A stretch of 37,592 bases of DNA from an uncultured Pseudomonadota bacterium (lineage in GTDB: Bacteria; Pseudomonadota; Alphaproteobacteria; Rs-D84): assembly GCA_902790415.1 (NCBI GenBank), contig CADARU010000011.1:1-37592 (forward strand), written 5' to 3'. Each line of letters starts with the position of its first letter. Positions within the stretch are counted from its first letter, which is position 1. A program made the translations under genes and the position numbers. The notes beneath the pieces are model-generated. The model searched no databases. It was not told the DNA's origin and saw nothing but the letters and a program-made list of their open reading frames with translations. This document shows, one piece after another, positions 5,269-30,419 of the stretch.

Positions 5269-5357
5269 GATTTGCATCTATTATATCAAAGTTTTTTTAT
5301 AAAATCAAGATATTGCGTTTCGGAAAAATTTTTTAATGGCGGTGGATTAAAAAGCCC

Positions 5358-5386
5358 TTGTATTAATTTTACCCATTTAGTATATT
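5358..5386 (+). promoter_or_regulatory. Probable promoter of the large secreted-protein gene
   Basis: TTGTAT (5358-5363) and TATATT (5381-5386) are separated by 17 bases. Transcription would start near 5393, about 50 bases before the chosen start codon at 5446. This argues against the longer open frame that begins at 5272. Confidence 0.55.
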
Positions 5387-5445
5387 TTCATTGTAACAAG
5401 GGAAGGGATATTTACAAAATACCGTATTTCTGTGGGTTTTATGGT

Positions 5446-8400: not shown

Positions 8401-9135
8401 TCTGTATATGAATGTCAAATACATTGTGAACCAGGAACATATTTAGCAAATGCCAACGATGCGTCATGCACAAATGTTGGTAATGGTTATTATACAGATG
8501 ACAGTTTGATTAATTGGGGTGATGTCGGAATGCGTACACGTTGTCAAAACGGTGGTGTCACGAACATGACAAATGCCGGCTCGGCCGATGCATGTGTGCC
8601 GGTTGGAACGTGCAGTGGCGCAACATATATGAATTCTGGCACATGCGAACCTTGTCCAACGGGATATACCGACAATACGATAAATGGTAAAACGGCGGCA
8701 ACCGATTGCCAACTGCTTTGTCCTGTGGGGTCGTATTTAGGAACAGCGAACGCGACAACATGTACCGATGCCGGTGTTGGTTATTGGGCGACGGGTGGTG
8801 CGGTAAATTACGGTTCAACCAGTACGCGCACCCAATGTGCGGCGGGTCTTACCACCGTTGGATACGGACACGGTGCGGATGAAGCATCGGATTGTGGGCG
8901 TAAATTACATTTGGGCGATTTTATATTATACACCAAAACAACGAAACCAACCGCACCCGCAATAAATGTTCAGGTTGAAAACGATGCCACAACACATTAC
9001 ATCGGGGTCAGTGATACGGACCAAACATTAACACCAATTCATGTGACCCAGGGAAACACACAATACACCGCCTTTGACGACAGTATTTTACATGGTGAAC
9101 GTGATTTAGAAACCAATACGCGTATTACCCAATAA
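5446..9135 (+). CDS. Large secreted cysteine-repeat surface protein with inserted lectin-like domain
   Basis: The chosen ATG gives 1229 residues beginning MKKLITRFFFAIS with a classic Sec signal peptide ending AFA (about residue 24). The open frame extends upstream to 5272 but lacks signal-peptide logic there. Order: a PKD-like segment with DWGDGT (about 70-110); BspA/DUF285-like repeats with 'MFRSTF ... IP ... LF' (about 160-300); six cysteine-rich units of about 95 residues with CPTGY, C..GTYLA.AN...C, GYY and YGST.SR.QCP (nt 6442-8895); and a short cysteine-free tail without an obvious membrane anchor. A domain of about 229 residues resembling LamG/concanavalin lectins (nt 7465-8151) interrupts unit 4. 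The protein is exported and probably an adhesin or matrix protein. The ribosome-binding site is weak (GGG, 9 bases upstream). Function is not known. Confidence 0.8.
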   Translation: MKKLITRFFFAISVLTVAFTGTAFAAECTGWAYYDSGLESCITCDNSGFTITTTSLAANTNFWFTMSPKGSFAVDWGDGTIDNIDRDNTTATDYSHTYTNGGVKTIKFCGRATEYNTAGGDNVVAAISFHKSDADNTSKWIASISGALGSVFPTVSDTPAGQPRFRSTFQSSTNLTTIPANLFSGVSGSAESMFRSTFDRSGLTAIPYGLFANATGGAKNMFRSTFYMCASLASLPDDLFAGITIAAQDEFKWTFYKATGLAGKYIPSTAFTGLVNAGAPSPATGNMWYQTFDGSNLVKSCPPRTRQFFTGYEGSVAETTWNGVVSCEPSNPCVGAEYWDSTNEVCTPCPTGYTYDTSNAKDSINQCKIQCADGTYLAATGNATCTNAGVGYYAAGGVFSYGQTSSRTKCPDDMPTINNTTTASDIEQCVVYCRGNKYRNSNNSCVDCPTGYVANSADGKAAITDCKIHCDGGTYLPIANAPSCEDVGDGYWAVATTVAYGSTVSRTQCPTGQTTGMTNASSASQCREALCTGATYRDSLTGECISCPIGYDAHTVSGKTSINECQIHCYAGTYIANANDTVCTNVGDGYYAAASDVNYGSTGSRGQCPNGQTTGTQTAASSSQCQTSCTGARYYDSATGACKDCPTGYTDNVTNGKNNINQCQGYCAGGTILAIYTPLEYLQSRNGNQFIDTGYGVTSDHVNGTVVIENLEAINNPAQYDSGNFFGNLYGKGGFSSGWKKNVFGVWLQKTNGGGEKARHSAPLNQNQVYTITYDITLTLGNNGRKNGVPTIIVDNNSPKTANVQDVSINYEGNTIKLFTNGSAYVKDDNTIDLPNGDKIFGGRMYSMQLYDNGVLQLDLIPARRESDGELGMYNRVDGGFYVNAGLDTFIAGADIGDSFGSCGPVGNGYYIGATQTNYGSTPTRNQCPNGLPTIENGEIINNATSIYQCDGINPCLGPRYPDPGTGICTLCPTGYVSNTQNGKESVYECQIHCEPGTYLANANDASCTNVGNGYYTDDSLINWGDVGMRTRCQNGGVTNMTNAGSADACVPVGTCSGATYMNSGTCEPCPTGYTDNTINGKTAATDCQLLCPVGSYLGTANATTCTDAGVGYWATGGAVNYGSTSTRTQCAAGLTTVGYGHGADEASDCGRKLHLGDFILYTKTTKPTAPAINVQVENDATTHYIGVSDTDQTLTPIHVTQGNTQYTAFDDSILHGERDLETNTRITQ
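6442..8895 (+). repeat. Six tandem cysteine-rich coding repeats
   Basis: Units begin C.G..Y.D....C..CPTGY and end near the next C.G..Y, about 95 residues each. Units 1-3, 5 and 6 are continuous. Unit 4 is split between its C..GT.L and GYY segments by the lectin-like insert. The repeats are diverged at DNA level, so this is old duplication rather than recent slippage. Confidence 0.8.
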
Positions 9136-11955: not shown

Positions 11956-12145
11956 AAAATCACCTCCAGAACAAACATGGGAACAAATTTTTTTAAATTT
12001 TTATGCTTGACTTTTTCGTTTTTGCCGTTTTTTTTTGCCATTGTTTTTTAAAAAAAATATCAGTTGTGTGTTTAAATTGGGGTGTTATTAACCCGATTTT
12101 GGTGTATTATTATTACAAACATTATCTTACAAAGGGATGGGGAAA

Positions 12146-12826
12146 ATGAAAAAAATTCTGTTATTAACAAGTGTGATTATGGCCGCCGGTGCTGCAAACG
12201 CGCAAACCGGATATTATGCTTCGGGAAAATTGGGAATAGGGGACACCACCATATATGTGGATGGTGATACCAAGTTTGGTGATTATTTGGTTAAGGAGTT
12301 TGGGCCGGGGTATCGTTTCGATGATTCGGGGTTGTTGTTGGAATTATCTACCGCGGTGGGAATTGATTGGTCACCGAACAGTATGTATGTAAAACAAAAC
12401 CCTTATGGCTGGTTCCATTTGCGGTTGGAAGGGGAATTTAGTTATAATAATTACCGCGAAGATGGAAAATTAAGACATAATTATTTGATTGATGCAATGA
12501 CAGAAATTAAATACGATCATGTGTTCTTGCTGGCTAATGGATATGCGGATTTCAGAATAGACAAGATTGTTCCTTATGTTGGTTTGGGGTTGGGATACAG
12601 TTTTGGTCGTGAAGAAGCGACAATAACAGATATAAACAAAGGCGAAGAACTTAGTGATTCTATCAATGATAACGGAATAATTTATGCATTGCATGCGGGT
12701 ATTGGGTATAAATATTCTGATATAACAACTTTGGATTTAGGATACAGACGGGTTTGGATGCCAACAGAAGAAGACGGTATGGATGTCTTTGGTACGGTTA
12801 GGTTTGGCGCCAGATTCCGGATATAA
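12146..12826 (+). CDS. Outer-membrane beta-barrel protein (opacity/OmpA-like barrel)
   Basis: The 226-residue product starts MKKILLLTSVIMAAGAANA, a signal peptide cut before QTGYYASGKLGIG. Alternating aromatic/hydrophobic strands separated by charged loops follow (FHLRLEGEFSYNN, DHVFLLANGYADF, IVPYVGLGLGYSFG, IIYALHAGIGYKYS, TTLDLGYRRVWM, FGTVRFGARFRI), giving an eight-stranded barrel like the OMP_b-brl family. The ATG at 12137 is rejected because AAAGGG abuts it; from 12146 the same site is 9 bases away. It is oriented away from the exported-protein run. A strong terminator follows. It is probably a surface structural or immune-interaction protein. Confidence 0.8.
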   Translation: MKKILLLTSVIMAAGAANAQTGYYASGKLGIGDTTIYVDGDTKFGDYLVKEFGPGYRFDDSGLLLELSTAVGIDWSPNSMYVKQNPYGWFHLRLEGEFSYNNYREDGKLRHNYLIDAMTEIKYDHVFLLANGYADFRIDKIVPYVGLGLGYSFGREEATITDINKGEELSDSINDNGIIYALHAGIGYKYSDITTLDLGYRRVWMPTEEDGMDVFGTVRFGARFRI

Positions 12827-12832
12827 AAAAAT

Positions 12833-12855
12833 CGCCCCGTTTGGGGCGTTTTTTG
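12833..12855 (+). terminator. Intrinsic terminator
   Basis: CGCCCC (12833-12838) pairs with GGGGCG (12843-12848) around GTTT and is followed by TTTTTTG. It ends the outer-membrane protein transcript. Confidence 0.85.
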
Positions 12856-12956
12856 TTTTTACTTAAAAAATTGCTGTGATAAGAACAAGCAAAACAGAAG
12901 CAGAAATAAATGCAGACTCAAAAAAAGACTTGTAAAACAACTACTTAGCAATTAAA

Positions 12957-13049
12957 ATGGCACTAGAATCAAATAAACCTGTGGATGATGTAATTATACC
13001 AAACCCCACAGTGCAAAGAATAAGAGAAATACGAAATGCTAAAAAATAA
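12957..13049 (+). CDS. 30-residue mini-ORF overlapping the next gene
   Basis: ATG at 12957 opens MALESNKPVDDVIIPNPTVQ and ends RIREIRNAKK, stopping at TAA 13047-13049. The stop lies inside the next gene, whose ATG is at 13036, a 14-base overlap that would couple translation. The peptide is hydrophilic with a basic C-terminus and no membrane segment. There is no strong ribosome-binding site, which lowers confidence. A small antitoxin-like or accessory peptide is possible, but nothing shows its role. Confidence 0.35.
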   Translation: MALESNKPVDDVIIPNPTVQRIREIRNAKK

Positions 13050-13224
13050 GGTTTTTTGGGCGGTTTTGATTGTAAGTGTGCTAGTTATTAGCATAGGGTT
13101 TGTTTCTATTCGCCAATATAGAGCAAATCAAAGCAAAATGTATCACGAATGTGTCCAAGATTGGGCAGATTCTGGCGCAACACAGGAAGAAGCTCGTTTG
13201 GCGTGTGATGATTTCCTAGAATAA
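13036..13224 (+). CDS. Small single-pass membrane protein (62 aa)
   Basis: The product begins MLKNKVFWAVLIVSVLVISIGFV, one transmembrane helix preceded by lysines (N-in). A hydrophilic tail with two cysteines follows (YHECVQDWADSG..., LACDDFLE). AGAGA lies about 10 bases before the ATG, within the upstream mini-ORF. A clear terminator follows 28 bases after the stop, so this is the end of a short transcript. Not recognised; the tail could sit in the periplasm with a disulphide. Confidence 0.55.
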   Translation: MLKNKVFWAVLIVSVLVISIGFVSIRQYRANQSKMYHECVQDWADSGATQEEARLACDDFLE

Positions 13225-13252
13225 CAAAATAAACAATTTGACAAATAGAAAG

Positions 13253-13281
13253 ACCATAGATATTTATCTGTGGTTTTTTTA
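13253..13281 (+). terminator. Intrinsic terminator
   Basis: ACCATAGA (13253-13260) pairs with TCTGTGGT (13267-13274), 8 bp with one T-G, loop TATTTA, followed by TTTTTT. It closes the small-membrane-protein transcript. Confidence 0.75.
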
Positions 13282-13306
13282 TATAAAACAAATTTCTGGG
13301 GCTAAT

Positions 13307-13321
13307 GGTTAAATCCACCTT
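13307..13321 (+). repeat. 15-bp direct repeat, copy 2 (GGTTAAATCCACCTT)
   Basis: Identical to 5254-5268, 8.05 kb away. Here GGTTAA is also the left arm of a small inverted repeat with TTAACC at about 13327-13332. Confidence 0.5.
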
Positions 13322-13590
13322 AAAATTAACCAAAAGAGCCAAAGAAAAAGTTGGACATGCCCCACCAAAATTCAAAGGTTACAAAAGTTGATAATATGGC
13401 AAACGAACAAAACTTCCTTTTGTTTTGTATATTACACAATAAAAATGAAAATTCCATCGATTTATACTACTTTTAGACATATAAAAACAGGTTAACCATA
13501 ATTAACAGAAATTAATATATTTAGTTGGATTCTGGTAGGATTTAAGAAAAAAGGCCTCGAAACAAAAAGTCTTGAAAACCTTGTAATCTG

Positions 13591-13632
13591 TGGCTCGCAG
13601 CTATAAATCAGCTTCGAACGACATACAGACTA
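13591..13632 (-). pseudogene. Possible decayed tRNA-Asn 3' half
   Basis: TGGCTCG, then TTCGAAC and GACATACAGACTA, occur in the same order as CCA end/acceptor, T-loop and variable-loop/anticodon-stem sequences of the intact tRNA-Asn (28470-28545), but the stems no longer pair. This could be an older integration scar; the similarity is short. Confidence 0.3.
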
Positions 13633-13736
13633 GATGTTTTTCATTAAATGAATCAATCCAAAAGATAAAATCAACAAATATACTTCAATAGTACAGAAAT
13701 CTAACAAAAACACCAATAAATCGATAATATTTCAAC

Positions 13737-13754
13737 TGACATACGGATTAACAG
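13737..13754 (-). other. att-like tRNA-Asn fragment A, left end of segment 1
   Basis: TGACATACGGATTAACAG is identical to 18 bases of the intact tRNA-Asn (variable loop through anticodon loop) and to the same part of the 21724-21768 half copy. Identity ends at the anticodon-loop heptamer TTAACAG on the right and before TGACAT on the left. It marks the left boundary of an 8-kb segment ending at the next copy. Confidence 0.6.
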
Positions 13755-13830
13755 AGATAAGTAATTGAATATAGTGTATTTTTTAAGTCCACCGTGAGCG
13801 TGGCTTACAGCCGATTTTTCATATAATTTT

Positions 13831-14279
13831 TGTATAAGTAAAAATAGCGGTATAACAAATGTATAATTTTGCGATTGTATTTTGTTGGAGCATAATGCAA
13901 ATATATCCAATGTTTTCCGTGGTTTTTGGCGAATTTTCCGTAATTTTGTTTTAAATTTTTCCGTTTGATTTTTATGCGATTTTTTGCCTTGTATGAATTT
14001 TGGATAAAACCCGAAAAATTGGGATACTGTGCGATACATTTTTATACACTTGTATAACAACATAAAATTTTCATGGTTGTATAAAATTTCGCCAAATCCG
14101 TATAATATCGCGTATAGCAACTGTATAATCCAAAAATATATATGCCATGTATAAATTCATGCAAAATTGCAAATATAACGAATGTATAATTTTGATTTTC
14201 TTATTTGCAAATTTTTTACAAATTTATAACAGATCAAGTATAACAAAGAAAATCAATAAAATTCAATTTTTTTGTATAA
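13831..14279 (+). repeat. Left TGTATAA direct-repeat cluster of segment 1
   Basis: Exact TGTATAA begins at 13831, 13860, 14051, 14078, 14122, 14148, 14183 and 14273. GGTATAA (13849), CGTATAA (14099) and AGTATAA (14236) are near copies. All are in the same orientation with irregular spacing. A matching cluster sits before the right end of the segment. They could be arm-type recombinase sites or regulator sites for the downstream ATPase gene. Confidence 0.6.
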
Positions 14280-14304
14280 ATATTCAATTATTATATCTTT
14301 TTTG

Positions 14305-14346
14305 CAACATTTTGATGTTGATTTGCAACTTTGTTTGTGGTATAAT
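14305..14346 (+). promoter_or_regulatory. Promoter of the AAA-protease operon with overlapping palindromic operator
   Basis: TTGATT (14318-14323) and TATAAT (14341-14346) are 17 bases apart, giving a leader of about 20 nt. The inverted repeat CAACAT-TTTG-ATGTTG (14305-14320) overlaps the -35 hexamer, the position expected for a repressor. The operon's first gene encodes a C-terminal helix-turn-helix that could be that repressor. Confidence 0.7.
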
Positions 14347-14372
14347 CACCACTGCAGAGAGAAAGGAAAACC

Positions 14373-15575
14373 ATGAAACAAGATATACGTCTTTATTTTA
14401 GTGCTATTCATAAGCTGTTTCGGGAAACGATTCCCGGTTCTGACGATACGGTAAAAAAACAAGTTAAACTTTTGATAGAAGAATTGAAAGCTGGCGGGTA
14501 CGAAAAAGAAGCAAAAATGTTAAATAATATTTTAGTAACAGATTCTGCAAAAAATGAATTAACGCCCATTAAAATACTCAAATCAAATCTGGGTTTTTGC
14601 GGAGAAGAACTTACTAAAGCTGTTTCGGTTCCAGTTAATAAAGAGACAGGAGCACAAATTTTAGAAGTCACATTTGTAAACGATTTGCCAGATGCTTCGC
14701 CTGTTTTTTCGGAAGCGATAGTTAAGGCAATTTCAAGCATATTAACGGAGTGGAGTAATGCGGATAAGTTAATCAACAAAGGCTTGGATCCTGTTCGAAG
14801 CTGTCTTATTTATGGTGCTCCAGGCACAGGAAAAACCCAGCTCGCATTATGGATGGCTAAGCAGTTGGGGTTGCCTGTTGTTACGGCTAGGTTGGACGGG
14901 TTGATGTCTTCATATCTTGGTACCACATCAAAAAACATAGGTAATTTATTTGATTTTGCAAATCGCTATAAGTGTTTGTTGCTACTGGATGAATTTGATG
15001 CTATCGCAAAATTTAGGGCTGATAATCAGGAAATAGGTGAAATAAAACGTGTCGTAAACACTTTATTGCAAAACATGGACACAAGAAAACAAAATGGTTT
15101 TACTATAGGAATTACGAATCATCCTAAATTGCTCGATCCTGCTGTATGGCGACGTTTTGATATTCAAATAGAAATTCCAAATCCCAGCAGAGAAGTATTA
15201 CAACAAATAGTACAAAGTAAATTGGGAACAGTAAAGCTAAAACCGTCTCAAGTTAAATTTTTATCTTGGCTTATAGATGGGGGTACAGGTGCTGATGCAG
15301 ACGTTTTGACTAGGTGGGTAAAAAAAGCAAAAATAGTTATAGGAAATGTTTTTGATTCTGAATTTTACACTTTGGTACAAGAATTTATATTTTTAAATGC
15401 AGGCAGGGTAAATCATGCTAACGCTAATATTGTCATGCAAGATAATCGAAAAGTTTTAACAAAAGAACTTTCTCAGTCACAATATAAATTTACTGGTACC
15501 GAAATTAGTGAAATTTTGAGTGTGGATAAGTCTACCATTTCCAGAATAAAAGCACCAAAAAACAAAAACAGTTAA
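14373..15575 (+). CDS. AAA+ ATPase with C-terminal helix-turn-helix, partner of the downstream subtilase
   Basis: This 400-residue cytoplasmic protein has an N-terminal helical region (1-110) and one AAA+ core: Walker A GAPGTGKT (148-155), Walker B LLLLDEF (202-208), sensor-1 ITN (247-249) and arginine finger WRRFD (259-263). The core is closest to the classic FtsH/katanin clade. The last 30 residues (FTGTEISEILSVDKSTISRI, about 373-392) form a helix-turn-helix. Ribosome-binding site AAAGGA precedes the ATG. The gene lies 15 bases before a subtilisin-like protease gene. ATPase/subtilase pairs of this type are known in mobile and defence-rich regions; the ATPase probably gates or feeds the protease. 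The HTH suggests it also controls its own promoter, which carries a palindrome. Confidence 0.85.
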   Translation: MKQDIRLYFSAIHKLFRETIPGSDDTVKKQVKLLIEELKAGGYEKEAKMLNNILVTDSAKNELTPIKILKSNLGFCGEELTKAVSVPVNKETGAQILEVTFVNDLPDASPVFSEAIVKAISSILTEWSNADKLINKGLDPVRSCLIYGAPGTGKTQLALWMAKQLGLPVVTARLDGLMSSYLGTTSKNIGNLFDFANRYKCLLLLDEFDAIAKFRADNQEIGEIKRVVNTLLQNMDTRKQNGFTIGITNHPKLLDPAVWRRFDIQIEIPNPSREVLQQIVQSKLGTVKLKPSQVKFLSWLIDGGTGADADVLTRWVKKAKIVIGNVFDSEFYTLVQEFIFLNAGRVNHANANIVMQDNRKVLTKELSQSQYKFTGTEISEILSVDKSTISRIKAPKNKNS

Positions 15576-15590
15576 CAATAGGATTTAAGT

Positions 15591-18035
15591 ATGCCAGCAA
15601 ACAACCCTGTTCAAGTAGTTTTAAATTCTGATCAATTTATAACATCAAAAGAGACATATTCTCATGCTGTTAGTCATAAAGATTTTTATTTTTCTGATGA
15701 CGAGGGTTTTGTAAGACATAAACAAACAATAATTGATTCTTTACAAAATTTACAAAATGTTTTAGAAACATCCGAATTGCCTGTTTGTTATGCTAAGTTA
15801 AAAATGCGTGAAGATGCAATTGCTAAAAGTTATAAACCGCTTACTATTTTTTGTCGTAGCAGAGACGATCAGGAGGATATGTTCGTTGGTGGTGGTAATA
15901 TAGGAGAAATTTATCTAGAACTAACCCCAAGTAGGATCGCAAGATCTACAAACATAATACACACAAGAGCAGAAAATACGGTTATTAAAATCAATAATAA
16001 GTCTCAACAACTAGAAGCTTCAGGAGTTCGTAGTGAATTGGGAGCAATAGATAATATTACAGAATACCCTAATGAAGAGAAAGCAGATTTTTCACCAGAA
16101 CAAGCAATTGAACATTTTAGAGATATAAATTGTGCAACTTATATTGTCAAATTATTTAGGCAATTACCGTCAATTCAAGAATTTAATACTTTGCCAAAAG
16201 ATATGCAAAAATTGTTTTCTGTTTTTATAAATGGGCTTAAACAGATATATGATGGCATTGTGATAAAAAACACAACTAATACCAATGGGAAAGCCCCAAC
16301 TATTGAAATAATTGTTGCAACACCTGGCACTTCGGAAAAGCCAGATTATAATTACGATTTGGATATACACACCCGGATAATAAATTTCTTGTGTGCATAT
16401 CCGTTGGTCAGAAAAATATATTTACCAGCAAAAATTCGTCTAGTCACTTCTAATTTTATAGAAACAACCAGCTTTAATCCTTCTGCTCCTGTTGCAGGAG
16501 TTAATTATCCAATATTAGGCATAATTGATGGTGGAGTTTCAGAGGTTATGGGTAATTGGGTGGCATACAAATACGATAGAACAACAGCGAATGACTTAGA
16601 ACATGGAACGTTTATTGCCGGATTAGCGTGTTTTGGGAAAAGTTTAAACAATGAGAATAATTGTCCAGAACAAGACGGTTGTTTTATTGCGGATGTTAAT
16701 TTTTTTAGTGCTCCAGAAAACATGTATATTACGAGTGATACTCTTGATGCTCTAGAATTGGCTATAAAAGATGTTAAGTTAAAAACGGATAATAAAGTCC
16801 GTATATTTAATTTGAGTATGAATCTTGAAAATTCAGACGCAACTAATTATGACGATTTTACACAGAGATTAGATCAAATAGCAGAAGAACATGATGTTAT
16901 CATAGTAATATCAGCCGGAAACATACGTAGAGGAAGTCCGTTGCGGACAGAATGGAGCAACGATATAAACACAAATTTACAAAATCTGGAAAATTATGTA
17001 GGTTGCGACCAAATAGAATGCCCAGCAATGAGTATTCGTAACATAAGTGTAGGAGCATTAAATCCGATGGATGATGCATGTGTAACATCTGTACCATTGG
17101 CGCCCACAAATTATACAAAGCGAGGTTTAAAATCTAAGATTATTCTCAAACCTGATTTAGCATACGTGGGAGGCAGAGGTGTTTCTGGTAACACGGGCTT
17201 AAAATCTATATCTCCATCTGGACAAATAATATCTGGAGCAGGGACTAGTTATTCTGCACCTTTAGTTGCTAGGATTTTAGCATCATTAAGTAACGACATT
17301 GTTGGCGGACAAAATTTAGCAAGAGAGACATTGATTGCATTATTAGTACATAGCGCAAAAGTTCCGGATTGTTTAGCAAATAAGGCTTATGAAAACATTT
17401 GTACGGATTTTGTAGGTTTTGGAATGCCAAGTAATAGTAAAGAAATATTAAATAACGATGATCATGAAATTAGACTTGTTTTTAATTCTGTTCTCAAAGA
17501 TCGTAAACGTATGGTTTTTGATTTTTCATACCCACCATGTTTAGTTAACGACAATGGTGGAATTACTGGTGAAATGGAATTAACTTTAGTGAGTACACCA
17601 CCAATTGACGACAGGTTTAATGCTGAACGAGTGAGAATAAATGTAACAGCTCAAGTCGGGCAATATTCACCAGATAAGTCCACACCTGAAAAACAAAAAT
17701 ATGATGGATTATTAAAACCTATTTTTGCATGTGATAAAAATCTAGATGGAACTGAACGAAACTTGATCAATGCTGGCTTAAAATGGGGAACAACAAAAAA
17801 ATACTTCTTCAGATCACCAAAAGGGACAGGAAAAAGTTCTGCTATGCGCTTGGTAGTTAGTTATGAATCTAGAGAAAATACCATTTTTCCACCAGAAGGT
17901 GTACCTTTTTCTGTGATTCTATCTATAAAAGATCCAACAAAAGAAAAACCTGTGTTTACCCAAATGAGACAACAATTGGATGCTGCCGCTATAAGTATCG
18001 CAGATATTCAGACGGCTAATCAACTTATGGTATAA
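15591..18035 (+). CDS. Subtilisin-like (S8) serine protease of a two-gene ATPase-protease module
   Basis: This 814-residue protein has no signal peptide, so it is probably cytoplasmic. The first 300 residues are a non-catalytic domain. The subtilase core has all active-site residues: Asp313 (LGIIDGGV), His338 (EHGTFIAG), oxyanion Asn444 (VISAGN) and Ser553 (GAGTSYSAPLVA). About 200 C-terminal residues form an additional beta-rich domain. Ribosome-binding site AGGATTTAAGT precedes the ATG. It is 15 bases downstream of the AAA+ gene. A cytoplasmic subtilase would be toxic if unrestrained, so control by the ATPase, for example activation by a phage cue, is the natural inference. No terminator is obvious after the stop. 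Confidence 0.88.
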   Translation: MPANNPVQVVLNSDQFITSKETYSHAVSHKDFYFSDDEGFVRHKQTIIDSLQNLQNVLETSELPVCYAKLKMREDAIAKSYKPLTIFCRSRDDQEDMFVGGGNIGEIYLELTPSRIARSTNIIHTRAENTVIKINNKSQQLEASGVRSELGAIDNITEYPNEEKADFSPEQAIEHFRDINCATYIVKLFRQLPSIQEFNTLPKDMQKLFSVFINGLKQIYDGIVIKNTTNTNGKAPTIEIIVATPGTSEKPDYNYDLDIHTRIINFLCAYPLVRKIYLPAKIRLVTSNFIETTSFNPSAPVAGVNYPILGIIDGGVSEVMGNWVAYKYDRTTANDLEHGTFIAGLACFGKSLNNENNCPEQDGCFIADVNFFSAPENMYITSDTLDALELAIKDVKLKTDNKVRIFNLSMNLENSDATNYDDFTQRLDQIAEEHDVIIVISAGNIRRGSPLRTEWSNDINTNLQNLENYVGCDQIECPAMSIRNISVGALNPMDDACVTSVPLAPTNYTKRGLKSKIILKPDLAYVGGRGVSGNTGLKSISPSGQIISGAGTSYSAPLVARILASLSNDIVGGQNLARETLIALLVHSAKVPDCLANKAYENICTDFVGFGMPSNSKEILNNDDHEIRLVFNSVLKDRKRMVFDFSYPPCLVNDNGGITGEMELTLVSTPPIDDRFNAERVRINVTAQVGQYSPDKSTPEKQKYDGLLKPIFACDKNLDGTERNLINAGLKWGTTKKYFFRSPKGTGKSSAMRLVVSYESRENTIFPPEGVPFSVILSIKDPTKEKPVFTQMRQQLDAAAISIADIQTANQLMV

Positions 18036-18064
18036 ACATCAGAGACTGAAGGTCGTACAAAAAC

Positions 18065-18682
18065 TTATGCCACCCATTTTGATCGTTTGTCCATGTATAA
18101 TGGCTCCAGGTTGCGTCTGAATTCTTCGACAATTTCGTTGATTTCTTTGTTAACTTTATCATCAGGTATAATTTTGCCGTCTTTCATCTCGCAAAATATA
18201 AAATCATACAACGGTTTATATTCTGGTGTGTCTTTGCCGTAATACAAGTTTTTAGATGCCTGCATGATTTTGAAATTATAATCAGTCAGTTTAAGTATCG
18301 CGATGATTATTTCTTTGCCCCAGTACATATATGCCTGATTTTGTAATGAACGTAATTTTTCAATAACGTCCTGTTGCTTTATTAGTCTCTGATGTGGAAC
18401 CAGGTGGTTTACTCGTTCCGGATACACATCGGCATTGCCAGGATGTGCTGCTGTTTCTGCTTTTATCCATTCAAGTGCTTCGTCATGTTCTGCTTGTGCT
18501 ATCATTGGCATTCTAACACCAATGTACAGGTCTTGAATATCGTAAACAGCACGCATAATTTCTGCGGCAAGTTCGATTTTCTTTTTGCCGATAAATTCGT
18601 GTTTCCAAGTATAAAGAGCAACCACAGCAATAATCGCTGTGGCAACTGATGCTGTACAAGAAATGATGTCTGTCGCTATCAT
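18065..18682 (-). CDS. Membrane-anchored protein of unknown function (205 aa)
   Basis: One N-terminal transmembrane helix (about 5-25, IISCTASVATAIIAVVALYTW) is followed by a 180-residue cytoplasmic, charged, mostly helical domain. That domain contains tryptophan/tyrosine-rich helices (YMYWGKEIIIAILKLTDYNF) and a Glu-rich C-terminus. AAAGG lies 9 bases before the ATG and a good promoter is present (TTGAAA-17-TAAAAT). It is divergent from the candidate nuclease gene and convergent with the protease. Single-TM proteins of this type are common in defence regions, but I do not recognise the family. It has its own promoter, so it is not part of the ATPase-protease operon. Confidence 0.6.
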   Translation of the reverse strand: MIATDIISCTASVATAIIAVVALYTWKHEFIGKKKIELAAEIMRAVYDIQDLYIGVRMPMIAQAEHDEALEWIKAETAAHPGNADVYPERVNHLVPHQRLIKQQDVIEKLRSLQNQAYMYWGKEIIIAILKLTDYNFKIMQASKNLYYGKDTPEYKPLYDFIFCEMKDGKIIPDDKVNKEINEIVEEFRRNLEPLYMDKRSKWVA

Positions 18683-18700
18683 GTAAAAAGCCTTTGGCAG

Positions 18701-18729
18701 ATTTTAAGACAAAACAAGATTTTTTTCAA
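18701..18729 (-). promoter_or_regulatory. Promoter of the 18065-18682 gene
   Basis: On the minus strand TTGAAA (18729-18724) and TAAAAT (18706-18701) are separated by 17 bases, placing the start of transcription about 12 bases before the ATG-proximal ribosome-binding site. Confidence 0.6.
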
Positions 18730-18766
18730 GTTCATCCCAATAAAAAACGCTAAAATTAACGAATCA

Positions 18767-18795
18767 TTGTGAAACAAAATAAAATATGATAAAAT
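18767..18795 (+). promoter_or_regulatory. Promoter of the candidate nuclease gene
   Basis: TTGTGA (18767-18772) and TAAAAT (18790-18795) are separated by 17 bases. The resulting leader would be short (about 15 nt), which supports the ATG at 18818 rather than the TTG at 18800. Confidence 0.55.
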
Positions 18796-18817
18796 TCCCT
18801 TGAAACAGGAGTTTATC

Positions 18818-19423
18818 ATGTGTGAAGTTACGAAGTTTAAGAAGGCTTTTTTTGATTTACCAAGTAGGGCATTCGGCGAAACTTATATCCAAGAAATTTT
18901 ATATAAAATATTAGGTGAAACTAAAAACAAAAAAAGAGTTTTTGATGCTGAACGCAAAGAAAATGGAAAGTCTTTGAATGGCGAATACAAAGCCGTTCGT
19001 GTTGTGTTTGAAAAAGAAACAGGCGATACAATATATGATCAAATTATGAATTTTAAGCCGATGAGCACTAGGATTGGTTCAATTTCGGATATCGAAACCG
19101 GTAAAATAGTTTCTAATTTTCAAAATATAAAATTAGAAGAAAATGGGGTTTTTGATTTTGACTATTTGGTTTATGTTTTGGTAGATGATTACGGTTTTCA
19201 TATTTTCGAAATAACTGGCGAAGATATGGAAAAGCATGTAAAAGACAAAAAGTTTAAGGGTTGGTCTGACAAACATGGTAGTAAAGAAACAGGTAAAAAT
19301 GGTCAATTTACTATACGGTCAGAAAGTTTGGATTTTCATAAAAAATTCTTAAAAAAGACAGTGTCGTGGCAAGAGATTTTAGAATTATCCAAAGAGATTC
19401 ATCTGAAAAAGAAGAAATCATAA
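18818..19423 (+). CDS. Candidate restriction endonuclease convergent with a DNA methylase
   Basis: This 201-residue soluble protein starts at ATG 18818, with CAGGAG 7 bases upstream. The stretch FDAERKENGKSLNGEYKAV (about 42-60) contains D-(12)-ExK, compatible with a PD-(D/E)XK catalytic site. A hydrophobic strand pair follows (DYLVYVLVDDYGFHIFEI) and the tail is lysine-rich. The main argument for restriction is context: its 3' end overlaps by 6 bases the 3' end of an N6-adenine methylase gene with its own promoter, and the two are the only genes between two unrelated membrane/protease genes. No family is recognised, so the endonuclease call is inference. Confidence 0.5.
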   Translation: MCEVTKFKKAFFDLPSRAFGETYIQEILYKILGETKNKKRVFDAERKENGKSLNGEYKAVRVVFEKETGDTIYDQIMNFKPMSTRIGSISDIETGKIVSNFQNIKLEENGVFDFDYLVYVLVDDYGFHIFEITGEDMEKHVKDKKFKGWSDKHGSKETGKNGQFTIRSESLDFHKKFLKKTVSWQEILELSKEIHLKKKKS

Positions 19424-21013
19424 ACCAAAAATTCCATTTATGATGGTTTCGACTTTGGAATATTCTTCATTGTCGATGAATTTTTCAATTTGATTTTGCA
19501 TTTGTTTGTCGATATCAGGAAGCGGCAAATTTTCTAAATTTGTCCTGCTGATTTTGTTTTCTCCGTAGAGTAACTTGTTCAATTTGTTATAAAGAGAACT
19601 GTTTAATAATGCCACCAAACATTTGTTACTAATGGTTAAATTTTGTGGAATGAAAAAATTGGCGCTATTCAAAGTTAATGTACCGGTTGTATCCAACGCA
19701 AAAATCATGTCTCTGCTTACGGTTTTATATATTATTTTTTCTTTGCTTCTGTAAAGGGAATCAGGGGCTACTTGTTGCAAGTTGTTTCTATCATATTTTA
19801 TATATTTGGTAGGTTTTGCTATTTTATATTTTGTTATATCTTTACCCGTTATCACTGGTTCTAAACCATCTGTTTTAACAGAAAAAACTTTGTTTTTATT
19901 GTCACCAGTAACAACACCCAAACCGAACAAACTCCCTTTTAAAGACTGAGTTTTTTTATCAAAAACTTTTTTTATCAAAACCTCTGTTTGATCGTTTATT
20001 GGTCTGAAATAATAAAAAGGTATGTCTTTTATTGTCGATGTTTTGATTTTGTCTGAATCATACTTGAAACTATCAGCTTTATTGTTCTTATCTAGAGTCA
20101 ATGTAATAATGGGGAACATTGTACCGGAAAAATTTGCACCATAAGATTTAATTTCTGTTAAATAGTTGTTGTCCAATATCCACTTTCTTAAGTCAGTGTG
20201 TTTCTTTACATTTATCACACTTTCTGGCAAGATGAAAACAGCTTTCTTTTTAGCTAATGGGGTAGCGTATATGACAAAATATGTCAGACTGTCTTCCGTT
20301 GCGACACACATTTTTGCCAAGCAAGATACGTCCAAAGTTGCGCCAAATGGCGGATTGCATAAAACATAATCAAATTGTTCACGATTTTTTAATATAAACT
20401 GGCAAAAATCGGACTGATATATTTTAGGCGCAGGGGCGTTGTTCCCGAATTTTAAATAGTAGTTTACTTTGCAACAAAAAACAGCGATTTCATCATAATC
20501 TATCCCGACAATCTGTTCTGGGTGTTTAATCTTTGAATTAAATATCAGATTGCCACTGCCAACAGCAGGATCGAAAACCACATCTGTTTCATTTATATCT
20601 AATTGCTTTACAATGTCTTCGATCATGGATTCATTTGTATAAAAGGAACCACTGGCAAGACGAACATCTTTTGGTGTTAGATATTGGTATATGCTACCGA
20701 TTAAATCTGTTTCCTGTTTTACCTTAGCAGGAACAGAAATATAAAAGCCTTTATCGTAGTGTTTATATTCAGCTAATTCCATACCTAGTAGCTGTTTGCT
20801 GACACCAAATAATATCGCTTTAACATCTACGCCTTTTTTGTGTTCTTCTAATAATTGCTTTAAGAAAGGTATGGTCTCTTTTGGATGCTTTATGTTGTGT
20901 GATGGTAAAATGTACTCTTTTTGCAAACGTTCTTTTTTGGCTCTGTTCTTATTTGTTCGATTAGATACAGAGACAAACGTATCAAAATAACCGGTCTGAT
21001 TAAACAAATCCAT
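19418..21013 (-). CDS. N6-adenine DNA methyltransferase with target-recognition region (Type II, gamma order)
   Basis: This 531-residue protein starts at ATG 21013, supported by GGAAAGG; the open frame extends to a GTG at 21052. SAM-binding motif I is DPAVGSGNL (148-156), the acidic motif II is GIDYDE and catalytic motif IV is CNPPFG (219-224). NPPF and the order motif I before IV place it with N6-adenine MTases of the type I/IIG HsdM-like fold. The C-terminal 200 residues (with FYYFRP, 'GLEPVITGKDITKYK' and 'NLENLPLPDIDKQMQ') resemble one specificity-subunit half, so DNA recognition may be built in. It probably protects sites cut by the convergent candidate nuclease. If no nuclease exists it could act alone as a solitary methylase or BREX-like component; no such partners are seen. 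Confidence 0.85.
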   Translation of the reverse strand: MDLFNQTGYFDTFVSVSNRTNKNRAKKERLQKEYILPSHNIKHPKETIPFLKQLLEEHKKGVDVKAILFGVSKQLLGMELAEYKHYDKGFYISVPAKVKQETDLIGSIYQYLTPKDVRLASGSFYTNESMIEDIVKQLDINETDVVFDPAVGSGNLIFNSKIKHPEQIVGIDYDEIAVFCCKVNYYLKFGNNAPAPKIYQSDFCQFILKNREQFDYVLCNPPFGATLDVSCLAKMCVATEDSLTYFVIYATPLAKKKAVFILPESVINVKKHTDLRKWILDNNYLTEIKSYGANFSGTMFPIITLTLDKNNKADSFKYDSDKIKTSTIKDIPFYYFRPINDQTEVLIKKVFDKKTQSLKGSLFGLGVVTGDNKNKVFSVKTDGLEPVITGKDITKYKIAKPTKYIKYDRNNLQQVAPDSLYRSKEKIIYKTVSRDMIFALDTTGTLTLNSANFFIPQNLTISNKCLVALLNSSLYNKLNKLLYGENKISRTNLENLPLPDIDKQMQNQIEKFIDNEEYSKVETIINGIFGL

Positions 21014-21052
21014 CTTCGCCTTTCCTTTTACACTTAAATAATTGCTGGTCAC

Positions 21053-21081
21053 ACTATAGAGCTTTTTTATTCTTTATTCAA
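21053..21081 (-). promoter_or_regulatory. Promoter of the N6-adenine methylase gene
   Basis: On the minus strand TTGAAT (21081-21076) and TATAGT (21058-21053) are 17 bases apart, about 40 bases before the chosen start at 21013. Its position upstream of the GTG at 21052 leaves almost no leader for that start, favouring 21013. Confidence 0.6.
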
Positions 21082-21659
21082 CATTAAAAAACCGGATAAG
21101 TATAGGATATTATATCAAGCTATTTGTGACGTAGTAATGTTTTGTCTGTTAAAAATGACATACGGAGTAACATTCTGTATGTCTTGTTGGGAAAAGATGC
21201 TCTGAAAGTGCTGGATTTCAGCTGCGTATAAAAAATGTATAAAAATGTATAAATATTTTGGACACAAAAAATCGTTTTTTGTATCCCAAATTGTATCCCA
21301 AAAATGCATCAATTTTATCTGGTATAAACAAAATCGTATAAAAAACGTAAAATTCCGTGTGTCAGTCAAAAGCAAAAACCCCAGAAATCCGGTCTTTTTT
21401 GTGCTACTGACACACGGACTAGCATTTTGGTATTTTTGCAATATAACATGTTGATTTTTGTGTAAAAAATACCATTTTTTGACAGGTGGCACACGGACGA
21501 AAATTCCGTGTGTCGGGGGTGTCGCGAATCTTTTGAAAGCCTTACTGGCATTGGTGTTGCTCTTGTTAGCAAAATATAACCAAAATTCTGGTATAACAAA
21601 TGTATAAATTTGTGTAAAAAATGTATAAATTTGGGGTCATTTTTGGCATTTTTAGGCAC
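21082..21659. other. Non-coding right end of segment 1
   Basis: Nearly 600 bases without a supportable gene. It holds att-like degenerate sequences (TGACATACGGAGTAACA at 21156; TGACACACGGACTAG near 21408; inverted CCGTGTGTC near 21354 and 21504) and the right TGTATAA cluster. Minus-strand open frames here are translations of these repeats. Confidence 0.7.
21225..21628 (+). repeat. Right TGTATAA direct-repeat cluster of segment 1
   Basis: Exact TGTATAA begins at 21236, 21246, 21601 and 21622. CGTATAA (21225, 21335) and GGTATAA (21321, 21590) are near copies. The orientation is the same as in the left cluster at 13831-14279, and the group ends about 95 bases before the tRNA half copy. Confidence 0.6.
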
Positions 21660-21768
21660 TTTATACCAGAACAAATTGCCGCGGCAAAAGTAAAGAAAAA
21701 CCGCAGAAATCTGCGGTAAATCGTGGCTCGGGCAACTGGACTCGAACCAGTGACATACGGATTAACAG
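21660..21768. repeat. 110-bp direct repeat, copy 1 (att B, left end of segment 2)
   Basis: This stretch matches 28409-28518 over about 110 bases with only a handful of differences. It contains the tRNA terminator hairpin (21701-21716) and the complete 3' half of tRNA-Asn (21724-21768). Similarity stops at the anticodon-loop heptamer TTAACAG, exactly where the intact copy goes on with the 5' half. Confidence 0.85.
21724..21768 (-). pseudogene. 3' half of tRNA-Asn (integration remnant)
   Basis: CCA end, acceptor strand, T arm, variable loop and 3' anticodon arm are identical to the intact tRNA-Asn at 28470-28545. The copy ends after TTAACAG and continues into unrelated sequence. It has no 5' half and cannot make a tRNA. 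Confidence 0.9.
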
Positions 21769-22090
21769 CAAATTGTGCTGATGATCAAAAAATCTCACAA
21801 AAGCCGCAGAAATCAGGGCTTTTTTGAGCCTTGTGTTTCTTTGCATAATGTAAAGTGGTGTGAAAATATGTGATTTTATAATCCCCTTAAACACACCGAG
21901 AAGCCCTTTTCATCAATGAATTTTTTTCAAATTTTCAATAATGAAATCATTATTGAAATCAATATTGATTTCATCTTTGATTTCAGAACTAAAAACTAGG
22001 GCTATTAAAGTGACTTTGTTGATGAAAATGTATTGCTAAAATATTCACTTTAAGCTAGTATTTTTACAGAAAAATAAACATGAACAACGA
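21769..22090. other. Non-coding left end of segment 2 with overlapping palindromes
   Basis: No gene is supported here. A hairpin with T-run near 21796-21826 (AAAAGCC/GGCTTTT) looks like a terminator. A 26-base near-perfect palindrome (21933-21944 with 21947-21958, AA centre) overlaps a perfect 18-base palindrome (21955-21972). These two cannot form at the same time. A possible promoter (TTGATG 22019, TATTCA 22042) precedes the small-membrane-protein genes. Confidence 0.6.
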
Positions 22091-22098
22091 GGTATAAA

Positions 22099-22224
22099 AT
22101 GGTTAAACAACATGAACCAAGAAAAGCAGTATTTATCAAAAAGGGCTGGTTTGTATTTTGGTGCCTAGCATGTCCTCCAATCGCCTTTTTATATGTCGTA
22201 TGTGCAGATAGTGTGGAGATATAA
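22099..22224 (+). CDS. 41-residue small membrane protein
   Basis: ATG at 22099 opens MVKQHEPRKAVFIKKGWFVF and continues WCLACPPIAFLYVVCADSVEI, one hydrophobic helix after a basic N-terminus (N-in). GAGG lies 7-8 bases upstream. Its stop is 5 bases before the next ATG, and the next gene's ribosome-binding site (GGAG, 22215-22218) lies inside it, so the two are translationally linked. Not recognised; it could be a small regulator or toxin of the downstream membrane protein. Confidence 0.6.
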   Translation: MVKQHEPRKAVFIKKGWFVFWCLACPPIAFLYVVCADSVEI

Positions 22225-22229
22225 ATATC

Positions 22230-23033
22230 ATGAAAAAATGGATATATAATGTTAAGACAATCTTAAAAAATAACTGGCCGTGGACGCTTCCTTTATTGTT
22301 GATGCTAGCGGGGATTGCCGTCTGGAAATATACTGATATAAATCAATCTGATAAGATTTCCGTGTCTGTTTTATTGGGAACGGCTGTTATATATTCCTTG
22401 CAATTTATAAACATGCATCAAACGTCAAAAAATCAAGAACAAATTCTTAAACAACAAAGAGATATTGCCCAAAAACAGCATGATTTTGATGTCTTTAAAT
22501 TACGTATGAATTTGCGAAATGATTTAGTCAAAGCATTTACTATAGCGTTATCTTCTGAAGATATCAGTATTACAAATGATGTAAATATGCACTTGGTAAA
22601 TATCGGCAAAATATGTGAAGATATAAAATTCGCATTTCCAAGAACAAAAGACCTAGATGCTGCAATAAAATCATTCAAAAAAAGTTGTGATGAAATAACA
22701 AGATTAGCGCTAGATAAACAGCTGATGATAGAATGCTCTCTTATAAGCAGAGGAAAAGCTTTATATATGACTTATAAAGGGTGTCTTAGAGTTGTGTTAG
22801 AAGATGGCAAATACACAACCCTTGTCATTGATGATAATAAATTGAACTCTTTAAAAATTTCAGAAAAAGAAAAGACAATTATACTAGGTACTATGTGTAA
22901 ATATATTAGTACTTCAAGTAACAAAGGTGAATTAGATCAACATATGTATTTGCTATTTAATAAGGCGATGTCTACAGGAAATTTAAGATTAAATAAAATA
23001 TTTGAATTTTTAGACAAACATATTAAGTTGTAA
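22230..23033 (+). CDS. Two-TM membrane protein with coiled-coil cytoplasmic domain
   Basis: This 267-residue protein has TM1 at about 16-34 (WPWTLPLLLMLAGIAVW) and TM2 at about 44-61 (ISVSVLLGTAVIYSLQFI). A coiled coil (TSKNQEQILKQQRDIAQKQ) follows, then a 180-residue cytoplasmic, mostly helical domain. Both termini should be cytoplasmic. It is in an operon with the 41-residue protein and the ASCH gene (12 bases downstream). The shape, two TMs plus coiled coil, is common among membrane effectors or sensors in defence loci. I recognise no family. Confidence 0.6.
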   Translation: MKKWIYNVKTILKNNWPWTLPLLLMLAGIAVWKYTDINQSDKISVSVLLGTAVIYSLQFINMHQTSKNQEQILKQQRDIAQKQHDFDVFKLRMNLRNDLVKAFTIALSSEDISITNDVNMHLVNIGKICEDIKFAFPRTKDLDAAIKSFKKSCDEITRLALDKQLMIECSLISRGKALYMTYKGCLRVVLEDGKYTTLVIDDNKLNSLKISEKEKTIILGTMCKYISTSSNKGELDQHMYLLFNKAMSTGNLRLNKIFEFLDKHIKL

Positions 23034-23044
23034 AGGGTATGTGG

Positions 23045-23305
23045 ATGAGAAACGTATTACATCTTGTATTGAAACATAAATGGTTTGATAAAATAGTATC
23101 TGGTGAAAAGACTTCGGAATATCGGGAGTGTTCTGATTATTGGAATAGACGATTGACCAACAAGCAGTATGATACTGTTGTTTTTCATAAGGGGTACACA
23201 AACATAACAGCTATATATACAATAAAGTCAATCGGCATAACACAGGCAAAAAATGATCTAGATTTGCCAAAATGTTGGGAAATTAAACTCATAAGTTTGC
23301 ATTGA
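23045..23305 (+). CDS. ASCH/PUA-like domain protein
   Basis: This 86-residue protein shows the ASCH signature: LHLVLKHKWFDKIVSGEKT, then SEYRECSDYWNRRL and YDTVVFHKGY. ASCH domains are beta-barrel RNA- or nucleotide-binding folds related to PUA, and some members hydrolyse N4-acetylcytidine. They are frequent in phages and islands. I use the ATG at 23045 because AAAGG at 23032-23036 is correctly spaced for it; the ATG at 23039 is too near. The 3' end overlaps the convergent methyltransferase gene by 17 bases. Function in this context, RNA binding or modification, is inferred. Confidence 0.75.
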   Translation: MRNVLHLVLKHKWFDKIVSGEKTSEYRECSDYWNRRLTNKQYDTVVFHKGYTNITAIYTIKSIGITQAKNDLDLPKCWEIKLISLH

Positions 23306-24854
23306 TGACATTAAGAATGTTTTTTATAGAAAATTTGTAATCTTTCTTGCCATTACCGTAATATAAGATCCATATTAAATAACCGACCACAATATCATAG
23401 ATTTTTACTAAATCATATGGCTCTTTTTTATCTTTAAAATAACTCAAAATGCTTACCACCAGTTTTTCGAGACTATCCTCAGATTCTACAGTTTTTATAT
23501 CCGGCTCATCTGTTTTCAAAAATGTAACGTATATGTCTGCGGTTGGGGAAAACTTTGACCAGTTTTTATTAAACGGCGTTCCATAGACATCAAAGAAATC
23601 AATGTCGTCCAATGCAAAATGCAGTTTTTTACAAGTGTTAATGACATGTTCCCATACAGAAAAATCTTTATTCTGAAAACATAAAGTGAACCTGCCGCCA
23701 GTTTTCAAGGCATTGTATATATTAGAAAGGGAAGCATCTAATAAATCAAAAAATTCCTTATTGGTTTTATTTTGAGCAGGGTTAACAATTATTTCATTTT
23801 CTGTGCAAAAAGATTGTTCCATCCAAGAATTCCATATATACGATAACTCTGAATATTGTATAGCATCACCATATGGTGGATCTGTAAATACATAATCAAA
23901 ATATTCCGGTTCAAGTGGTTCAGTGGCGGAACGGGTAAAGATAGAGTAATTACCAAGTTGGTGATTTTTTATTCTTTTTAGTAATTCAACTTTGCTTTGA
24001 ATAATATTATTTAGTCTTTCTTCAAATCTGAACCACACATTTTCGGATATATAATCATCAGGAATCCAATAATTGTTTACGCCCAATGGTCTGATATTGA
24101 TCCCTTTTAATTTGCTAACATGCAATAAGGTATTAGTAAAAGCGAGTTTAAAAATATCTATGTTTTCAGATGATATAAATTTATTTATACAATCATATAA
24201 TACTGATAGAGCATGCCAGTTCCTATTGCTATACATATCTTTGATAGATTTAATACCTTTGTACGAAAATCTATCTTTATAAAATTTCTTTGGAAAATCG
24301 ACCTTCGGAGACCAAAAAGATGATTCTTCAGAATCGTCTACACAAAATTCTGTAATTTCTCGTTCTGATTTTTTAGAAAGGCAATTAGGACAATAAGAAA
24401 CTGCTACAGGTTTTTGAAATTTTGGGCCGCTTTTTATATATTTTATAGCTAAATTTTTACCGCAACATCTACATTTTTGAGATAGTTGATATAAGCTTAA
24501 AATTGATGCTTTGCAGTTGGCAATCAACTTCTCTTGATCTTTATATAAACTGGTCAAATCTGTTGATGTATTAAGCGTTTCTTTGGTTATCAAAACAGAC
24601 ATGGGGTTCAAATCGCCACCAATAAAATTTCTGTTTAAACATATGGACTCTAATCCTGTCACTCCGCTACCACAGAAAGGGTCTAATACAATATCCCCTG
24701 GTTTTGAATATTTTTCTATGTATTTGCTAACGATGTACCAAGGTTTTCTAGACCAATACTTATGAATTTTATAGATTTTAGATATGTTCTTATCATAAGT
24801 TAACACATTGGTATTGAGTTTGTTAAAGAGGCTATCGATAATTTTTAAATCCAT
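23289..24854 (-). CDS. DNA methyltransferase M1 (DPPY type) with zinc-finger insert
   Basis: The 521-residue protein begins MDLKIIDSLFNKL. Motif I DPFCGSG (58-64) comes before catalytic motif IV TDPPYGD (323-329). A Cys4-5 cluster (CRCC and CPNC, about 127-157) probably binds zinc. DPPY marks amino-methylation of adenine N6 (or cytosine N4). The large central region would hold target recognition. The ATG at 24852-24854 overlaps the M2 stop codon as TAATG, and GGAAGG lies just upstream. The longer frame to 24878 is rejected for that reason. It works with M2 and the two divergent nuclease genes as one restriction-modification unit. Confidence 0.85.
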   Translation of the reverse strand: MDLKIIDSLFNKLNTNVLTYDKNISKIYKIHKYWSRKPWYIVSKYIEKYSKPGDIVLDPFCGSGVTGLESICLNRNFIGGDLNPMSVLITKETLNTSTDLTSLYKDQEKLIANCKASILSLYQLSQKCRCCGKNLAIKYIKSGPKFQKPVAVSYCPNCLSKKSEREITEFCVDDSEESSFWSPKVDFPKKFYKDRFSYKGIKSIKDMYSNRNWHALSVLYDCINKFISSENIDIFKLAFTNTLLHVSKLKGINIRPLGVNNYWIPDDYISENVWFRFEERLNNIIQSKVELLKRIKNHQLGNYSIFTRSATEPLEPEYFDYVFTDPPYGDAIQYSELSYIWNSWMEQSFCTENEIIVNPAQNKTNKEFFDLLDASLSNIYNALKTGGRFTLCFQNKDFSVWEHVINTCKKLHFALDDIDFFDVYGTPFNKNWSKFSPTADIYVTFLKTDEPDIKTVESEDSLEKLVVSILSYFKDKKEPYDLVKIYDIVVGYLIWILYYGNGKKDYKFSIKNILNVINANL

Positions 24855-25888: not shown

Positions 25889-25939
25889 CTTATCCCTTTC
25901 TTTCTAATTGACACTTAATATACAAAATACCGCACAAAA

Positions 25940-25950
25940 AGTACAGTACT
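25940..25950. promoter_or_regulatory. Palindrome in the divergent M2/nuclease promoter region
   Basis: AGTAC-A-GTACT is a perfect inverted repeat between the two divergent operons, the usual place for an operator that times methylase before nuclease. No controller-protein gene is seen in the locus. Confidence 0.4.
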
Positions 25951-26010
25951 AAATATTGGTTGTGTTTTGTGTGTAATGTGTATAAACTATCATGTGACAA
26001 GGGTAGTTTT

Positions 26011-28545: not shown

Positions 28546-28557
28546 ATAACGCGACAT

Positions 28558-29476: not shown

Positions 29477-29478
29477 TT

Positions 29479-30342: not shown

Positions 30343-30419
30343 AAGCACGATTGTTTAACAATAAAATTTTACTAATAAAAACAACAGATGATGTGTTTGT
30401 GGCTACGTACAGTTATAAA

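Follow-up and report, generated by a model that had tools for sequence, protein, structure and literature searches.

A phased promoter array associated with helix-turn-helix-bearing IetA suggests self-repression in a branch of the IetAS toxin–antitoxin systems

The DNA analyzed here is a 37,592-nt stretch from an uncultured Pseudomonadota bacterium (contig CADARU010000011.1; hereafter the window), in which positions 14373–18035 contain adjacent genes for an AAA ATPase (IetA) and a subtilisin-like S8 protease (IetS). Judged from its sequence, this module is a member of the known toxin–antitoxin/anti-phage pair IetAS. IetA of the window ends in a helix-turn-helix (HTH) domain, and comparisons of the DNA upstream of ietA point to a probable self-repression of the IetAS operons with such an IetA, in which IetA would be both the antitoxin and an autorepressor acting on a phased operator at the promoter.

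The sequences upstream of ietA were compared among 15 alphaproteobacterial relatives that form the clade of the window (clade 1). All 15 loci have two to seven same-strand GCAHC words in steps of 20 or 21 bp, or of 41–42 bp across a degenerate word; the steps in Rhizobium L033, for instance, are 21, 21, 20, 21, 21, and 21 bp, and those in L077 are 21, 21, 21, 20, 21, and 21 bp. GCAHC pairs at 20–22 bp number 49 in this clade, compared with 0.24 expected, and none are present on the reverse strand. The periodicity is also apparent without any motif: 61 exact 5-mer matches were counted at lag 21, whereas dinucleotide shuffles gave 4.3 ± 2.7, and the signal recurs at lag 42. Per-locus step counts are conditioned on array scoring, whereas such free-lag tests are not. 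The aligned half-sites of the clade read YGCAHC and the intervening DNA is uninformative, such that only about 5 bp per unit are conserved.

The same spacing was found in an independent set of 52 HTH-bearing IetA loci from viral contigs, which were fetched after the array rule had been set (lag 21, z = 18.8; lag 42, z = 18.2; lag 20, z = 16.6), and in 20 further HTH-bearing loci (lag 21, z = 11.2). No lag signal was detected at 22 HTH-less IetA loci (11 matches observed, 12.4 expected) or at 21 non-IetA AAA+ genes (16 observed, 17.9 expected). When scored per locus, an array is present at 52 of the 75 HTH-bearing loci of the main clade. The preliminary description of this locus had held that HTH-less homologs retaining the operator would speak against regulation by the ATPase; for the phased array, no retention was seen in any of the 22 HTH-less loci, including the founding system of the plasmid pTiC58. 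Across all loci the contrast is 53/83 with the HTH versus 0/22 without it (Fisher's test, 1e-8). As controls, none of 73 stretches located 350–520 nt upstream of the same genes has an array, and the coding starts of ietA gave an array call in 7 of 75 cases, probably due to codon periodicity.

In several phyla, arrays are located directly 5′ of HTH-bearing ietA, whether the gene is on a chromosome, a plasmid, or a viral contig. They usually comprise three to seven sites that span the promoter and the 5′ leader, and the 3′-most site lies between −90 and −6 relative to the start codon; these positions are approximate because the start codons of homologs were chosen by rule. The half-site word differs by branch: GCAHC in the clade of the window, GATAT in its sister clade, AGAAAC in Hymenobacter, GAAC in Enterococcus, and CGTTC, TGTTC, GGAAT, and others elsewhere. 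The Bacteroidota locus L083, for example, has AGAAAC three times in steps of 21 and 21 bp, and an array is also found in Enterococcus L082. The spacing of two helical turns, the same-strand orientation, and the position over the promoter and leader are constant across these branches.

In the window, four half-sites (Table 1) are arranged head-to-tail in steps of 21, 20, and 21 bp, which places them on the same face of the helix, and all four positions are matched in the nearest relative, L046. A sigma-70-like promoter at 14318–14346, with 10 of 12 consensus matches, a 17-nt spacer, and a TG before the −10 hexamer, is also kept in L046. The two best half-sites flank the −35 hexamer, and IetA bound there would therefore be expected to occlude RNA polymerase.

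Several observations weigh against self-repression through this array or limit its reach. Only two of the window half-sites are good and the array score of the window was reached by 4 of 30 shuffles, so that the case for an array in the window depends on its homologs. GCAHC pairs at 20–22 bp number 104 genome-wide (N15..17 scan), a count that is uninformative on a regulon. Among HTH-bearing loci outside the main clade, most have no detectable array (1/8 with one). Moreover, the loss of the HTH is essentially one event, and the association between HTH and array thus does not represent many independent events. Co-variation between half-site and HTH beyond AAA relatedness was not detected (partial Mantel r = 0.03, 422/2000); that IetA binds the array is suggested by position, exclusivity, and geometry, and not by co-variation. 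An exception to the rule was also observed in L213, L219, and L223, three viral-contig loci forming an HTH-bearing sister group of the HTH-less clade, in which no phased array was detected.

Alternatively, the array may be bound by another regulator of the host or of the mobile element, or may be an iteron- or partition-like site, in which case the IetA HTH would serve another purpose, for example binding to phage DNA. We consider this explanation unlikely. Some of the loci are on plasmids, where iterons occur, and separate regulators exist in the family, as seen from the DUF6088 gene upstream of pTiC58 ietA and the winged-HTH-like open reading frames (ORFs) at L007 and L008; the lack of co-variation beyond phylogeny would also be compatible with it. 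However, the array adjoins HTH-bearing ietA across replicons and phyla with changing words, is absent from HTH-less loci and from adjacent upstream DNA, and belongs to an operon whose sole DNA-binding domain is that of IetA. Plasmid iterons (direct repeats of 17–22 bp) and the 20-bp repeats of ParR/parC type are likewise tandem, same-strand sites spaced by about two turns and read by oligomers. The IetA array differs from them in that about 5 bp per unit are conserved and in that it sits at the promoter of a protease/antitoxin operon, not at an origin or centromere.

It is also quite improbable that IetA is a DNA-bound scaffold and that the array serves activation rather than repression. SgiAT, a related system of SGI1, was suggested to require positive activation (PMC5006074). 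However, the SgiAT relatives are HTH-less, with SgiA 50% identical to pTiC58 IetA, and the array at HTH-bearing loci extends across the promoter and on into the 5′ leader, which is the position of a repressor site.

The preliminary description had proposed a different operator, the palindrome CAACAT-TTTG-ATGTTG (CAACATTTTGATGTTG), which does exist as a perfect repeat touching the −35 hexamer TTGATT. Its use as a dimeric IetA operator is very improbable. Within 150 nt upstream of ietA, one perfect 6-bp inverted repeat with a spacer of 2–8 nt was observed, compared with 1.35 expected by chance, and the palindrome has mismatches at 3 of 12 positions in the closest homolog (L046, 80% identical) and at 2–5 of 12 positions in the other 12 relatives. 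L046 has lost its right arm but retains the promoter and the GCAAC words that flank it. The palindrome was rejected as an operator on these grounds, as the elements conserved among the relatives are the direct repeats, which have the left arm in common with it. Finally, it is hardly credible that the periodicity stems from curved DNA or from AT-rich promoter sequence of low complexity: although the upstream regions are AT-rich and A/T runs are among the inferred words (e.g., at L218 and L153), curvature gives a period of about 10.5 bp, whereas the signal at lag 10–11 is weak (z = 3–4) compared with lag 21 (z = 19–21), the best motif GCAHC contains GC, and the dinucleotide shuffles and HTH-less loci are flat.

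The assignment of the two genes to IetAS is based on the gene order, full-length matches to PADLOC models (PDLC02195, 481.6 bits over residues 8–397 of IetA; PDLC02199, 741.9 bits over residues 3–812 of IetS), and intact Walker motifs and catalytic tetrad. The ORFs, on the same strand, encode 400 and 814 aa, and the start of ietS follows the stop of ietA after a gap of 15 nt. Scores against the NCBIfam models are below the cut-offs (IteA, NF042959, 265 bits versus 510; IteS, NF042956, 281 bits versus 900), and the pair is therefore related to, but outside of, the IteA/IteS equivalogs and represents a diverged branch.

The AAA domain of IetA (PF00004, E = 2e-29) has a Walker A motif in which G148, P150, G151, G153, and K154 are invariant in 45 sequences, a Walker B motif (LLLLDEFD) at residue 202, and an arginine finger (WRRFD) at 259, in line with the AAA+ ATPase first read from this sequence. 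An AlphaFold2 model based on an alignment of 45 sequences has a mean predicted local distance difference test (pLDDT) score of 90.4, and the folds nearest to its AAA module are those of p97, FtsH, Vps4, NVL, and PAN, which belong to the classic clade of protein-remodeling ATPases. A sigma-54 activator identity was rejected, as the GAFTGA loop that marks these bacterial enhancer-binding proteins was not found when the IetA sequence was read directly and the nearest folds are classic AAA proteins. A DnaA-type AAA+ was also considered; DnaA is not among the best fold matches, which are of the classic clade, but this does not exclude a DnaA-type protein.

The C-terminal HTH, the only DNA-binding domain in the operon, had also been recognized in the preliminary description. 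Its single-sequence Pfam match in the window is weak (HTH_11, E = 0.0096). Residues 348–393 are modeled confidently by AlphaFold2 as a four-helix tail (pLDDT of about 93–97), and a profile of 37 IetA tails matches DeoR/SorC-type regulators, sigma factors, and MarR and CRP proteins in the PDB, as well as HTH_23, HTH_38, HTH_3, HTH_24, and others in Pfam. The HTH is not peculiar to this locus, since most bona fide IetA sequences surveyed have one, including the named iteA of Acidovorax (L079). The sequences without it form one clade of 22 sampled IetA sequences; among its members are the IetA of pTiC58 and L044, a Pf-phage-type IetA from a P. aeruginosa plasmid. HTH loss in IetA is thus essentially a single clade, or event, on the tree; two further rows lacking the HTH are explained by truncation at a contig end and by a probably disrupted gene. 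On a Cupriavidus plasmid (L080, 3899–4900), the annotated ORF of a close IetA relative loses the C-terminal HTH and the S8 gene is likewise annotated in pieces, which probably marks a disrupted copy.

IetS has an S8 domain (PF00082, E = 4e-26), and its AlphaFold2 model (pLDDT 85.5) is most similar in the PDB to Tk-SP and KP-43. No signal peptide was seen on inspection by eye. The protease 15 bases downstream of ietA with a complete Asp313/His338/Asn444/Ser553 site was confirmed exactly as first described, and these residues are invariant wherever aligned among 46 homologs (Asp, 46/46; His, 46/46; Asn, 45/45; Ser, 43/43). Side observations on ietS, at L035 (5235–7697), L057, and L062, include a gene split into two ORFs in Aureimonas pSA4125 and an in-frame stop in two genomes; in these cases the toxin gene has decayed and ietA is kept. 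In addition, the PADLOC IetS model PDLC02199 matches the Lactococcus lactis control genome at E ≤ 1e-60.

IetAS was founded on the Agrobacterium plasmid pTiC58, with IetS as the toxin and IetA as the antitoxin (Yamamoto et al., 2009, cited in PMC8562856 and PMC5006074). Like the pair in the window, the pTiC58 system has an AAA ATPase gene followed by an adjacent S8 protease gene. However, pTiC58 IetA has 328 aa, lacks a C-terminal HTH and a phased array, and has a DUF6088 gene upstream. As a separate observation, the HTH-less IetA loci of pTiC58 (L232, 37031–38860), L007, and L008 have a DUF6088-type (winged-HTH-like) gene shortly upstream, as if regulation had moved there. In SgiAT of SGI1 (PMC5006074) and TA132/TA133 of mycoplasma (PMC8562856), an ATPase antitoxin similarly neutralizes a toxic subtilisin-like protease, and loss of the antitoxin ATPase alone is lethal in mycoplasma (PMC8562856); the available portions of these reports do not mention a DNA-binding domain or autoregulation. 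IetAS is now catalogued as a defense system, with its mechanism described as unknown (PMC11878078). The idea of the ATPase as the gate of the protease is therefore prior art, as an antitoxin role of the ATPase has already been published for homologs. No description of an operator or HTH in IetAS was found in the open-access literature, and as far as this literature shows, a phased operator tied to the HTH-bearing IetA branch has not been described.

Type II antitoxins with autoregulatory DNA-binding domains and P1 ParA-type ATPases provide precedents in which the antagonist or ATPase also binds its own promoter, and DnaA is an AAA+ module joined to a C-terminal HTH. The operon resembles the type II autoregulatory arrangement in that the antitoxin gene comes first, the antitoxin carries a DNA-binding domain, and a promoter array is present at the family level, though weak in the window alone. 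IetA differs from these precedents in its AAA module, which is nearest to p97/FtsH/Vps4/PAN, and in its sites, which are head-to-tail 5-bp words every two turns.

In the preliminary description, the ATPase was proposed to act both as a repressor, by means of its HTH, and as the gate of the protease. This proposal agrees with the array being found only at HTH-bearing ietA and with the antitoxin role published for homologs; the palindrome as its operator does not stand. According to the self-repression model, each subunit of an IetA oligomer would contribute one HTH to reading the array, and the bound oligomer would block the ietA promoter by occluding RNA polymerase. Separately, IetA would restrain the IetS protease, as published for homologs; the toxicity of IetS, its neutralization by IetA, and anti-phage activity are known from homologs only. 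Upon loss, titration, or redirection of IetA, as may occur with plasmid loss or phage infection, transcription would rise and IetS would be freed, and freed IetS would cleave cellular or phage proteins such that growth stops. A more elaborate version, which we regard as doubtful, is a ring or spiral of about six IetA subunits wrapped by promoter DNA with one HTH per 21-bp unit. The promoter would then be an antitoxin store, and damage to invading DNA or competition by it would de-repress the operon and strip IetA from the protease, forming a DNA-integrity-sensing switch. For six 21-bp units, the circumference would be about 430 Å and the diameter about 136 Å, which is near the expected size of an AAA ring plus DNA; this geometry is, speculatively, plausible in numerical terms.

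Table 1. Positions of the promoter elements, genes, and protein features of the IetAS locus in the window.
Feature	Position	Strand	Basis or remark
Half-site 1, TCAAT, degenerate	14263..14267	+	In phase with sites 2–4; TCAAC at the equivalent position in L046; weak alone
Half-site 2, TCAAT, degenerate	14284..14288	+	GCAAT in L046
Half-site 3, GCAAC	14304..14308	+	Identical in L046; fits clade consensus YGCAHC
Palindrome, CAACAT-TTTG-ATGTTG	14305..14320		Present, at chance level, unconserved
Predicted −35, TTGATT	14318..14323	+	Consensus match only; conserved in L046
Half-site 4, GCAAC	14325..14329	+	Exactly 21 bp from site 3; inside −35/−10 spacer
Predicted −10, TATAAT (TACAAT in L046)	14341..14346	+	Consensus match
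ietA, AAA ATPase with C-terminal HTH, 400 aa, antitoxin/autorepressor candidate	14373..15575	+	PADLOC, AlphaFold2, fold matches
IetA Walker A, GAPGTGKT, residues 148–155	14814..14837	+	Sequence
IetA C-terminal trihelical HTH, residues 359–393, recognition helix near DKSTISRIK	15447..15551	+	Profile and model
ietS, cytoplasmic S8 (subtilisin-like) protease, 814 aa, toxin candidate	15591..18035	+	PADLOC, Pfam, AlphaFold2
IetS catalytic Asp313	16527..16529	+	Sequence and alignment
IetS catalytic His338	16602..16604	+	Sequence and alignment
IetS oxyanion Asn444	16920..16922	+	Sequence and alignment
IetS catalytic Ser553	17247..17249	+	Sequence and alignment

For the genomic context, IetAS lies inside an AT-rich stretch of the window, with a GC content of 0.31–0.36 over about 12–31 kb versus 0.37–0.44 on either side. 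IetS was not found in three same-genus genomes examined, and together these patterns suggest horizontal gain of the locus. No further IetS was found in the orders of G426, G608, and G087, and single-protein scans of viral contigs with IetA or IetS returned nothing. The AT-rich stretch (12000–31000) looks like a defense island. In addition to IetAS, it has an Eco57I/TaqI-like methyltransferase gene (19418–21052, − strand), two ORFs for N6/N4 methyltransferases, and several others that have no Pfam match. Two overlapping methyltransferase ORFs (23289–25888, − strand; 529 aa with a TTG start, and 344 aa) each match only the C-terminal part of N6_N4_Mtase, and their PADLOC matches are BREX PglX/type II-like. 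A trypsin-like peptidase ORF (29479–30342) and a 181-aa ORF 2 nt upstream of it (together 28931–30342, + strand) have weak PADLOC matches to LmuA and HamA and may be a second protease-based defense module. Other features include a tRNA-Asn gene at 28470–28545 and a 1287-aa ORF at 5272–9135 (+ strand; TTG start) without a Pfam match.

Taken together, the geometry of the array predicts the ATPase as its own repressor, together with its binding place and oligomeric register. The IetAS family is predicted to split into a self-repressing, HTH-bearing branch and an HTH-less branch that is regulated separately, as exemplified by pTiC58. If true, an AAA ATPase of the protein-remodeling type would use a phased array to repress transcription in a sequence-specific manner. 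An operator with such a clear geometry would be a concrete handle on IetAS, turning a vague regulatory idea into one that is directly testable.

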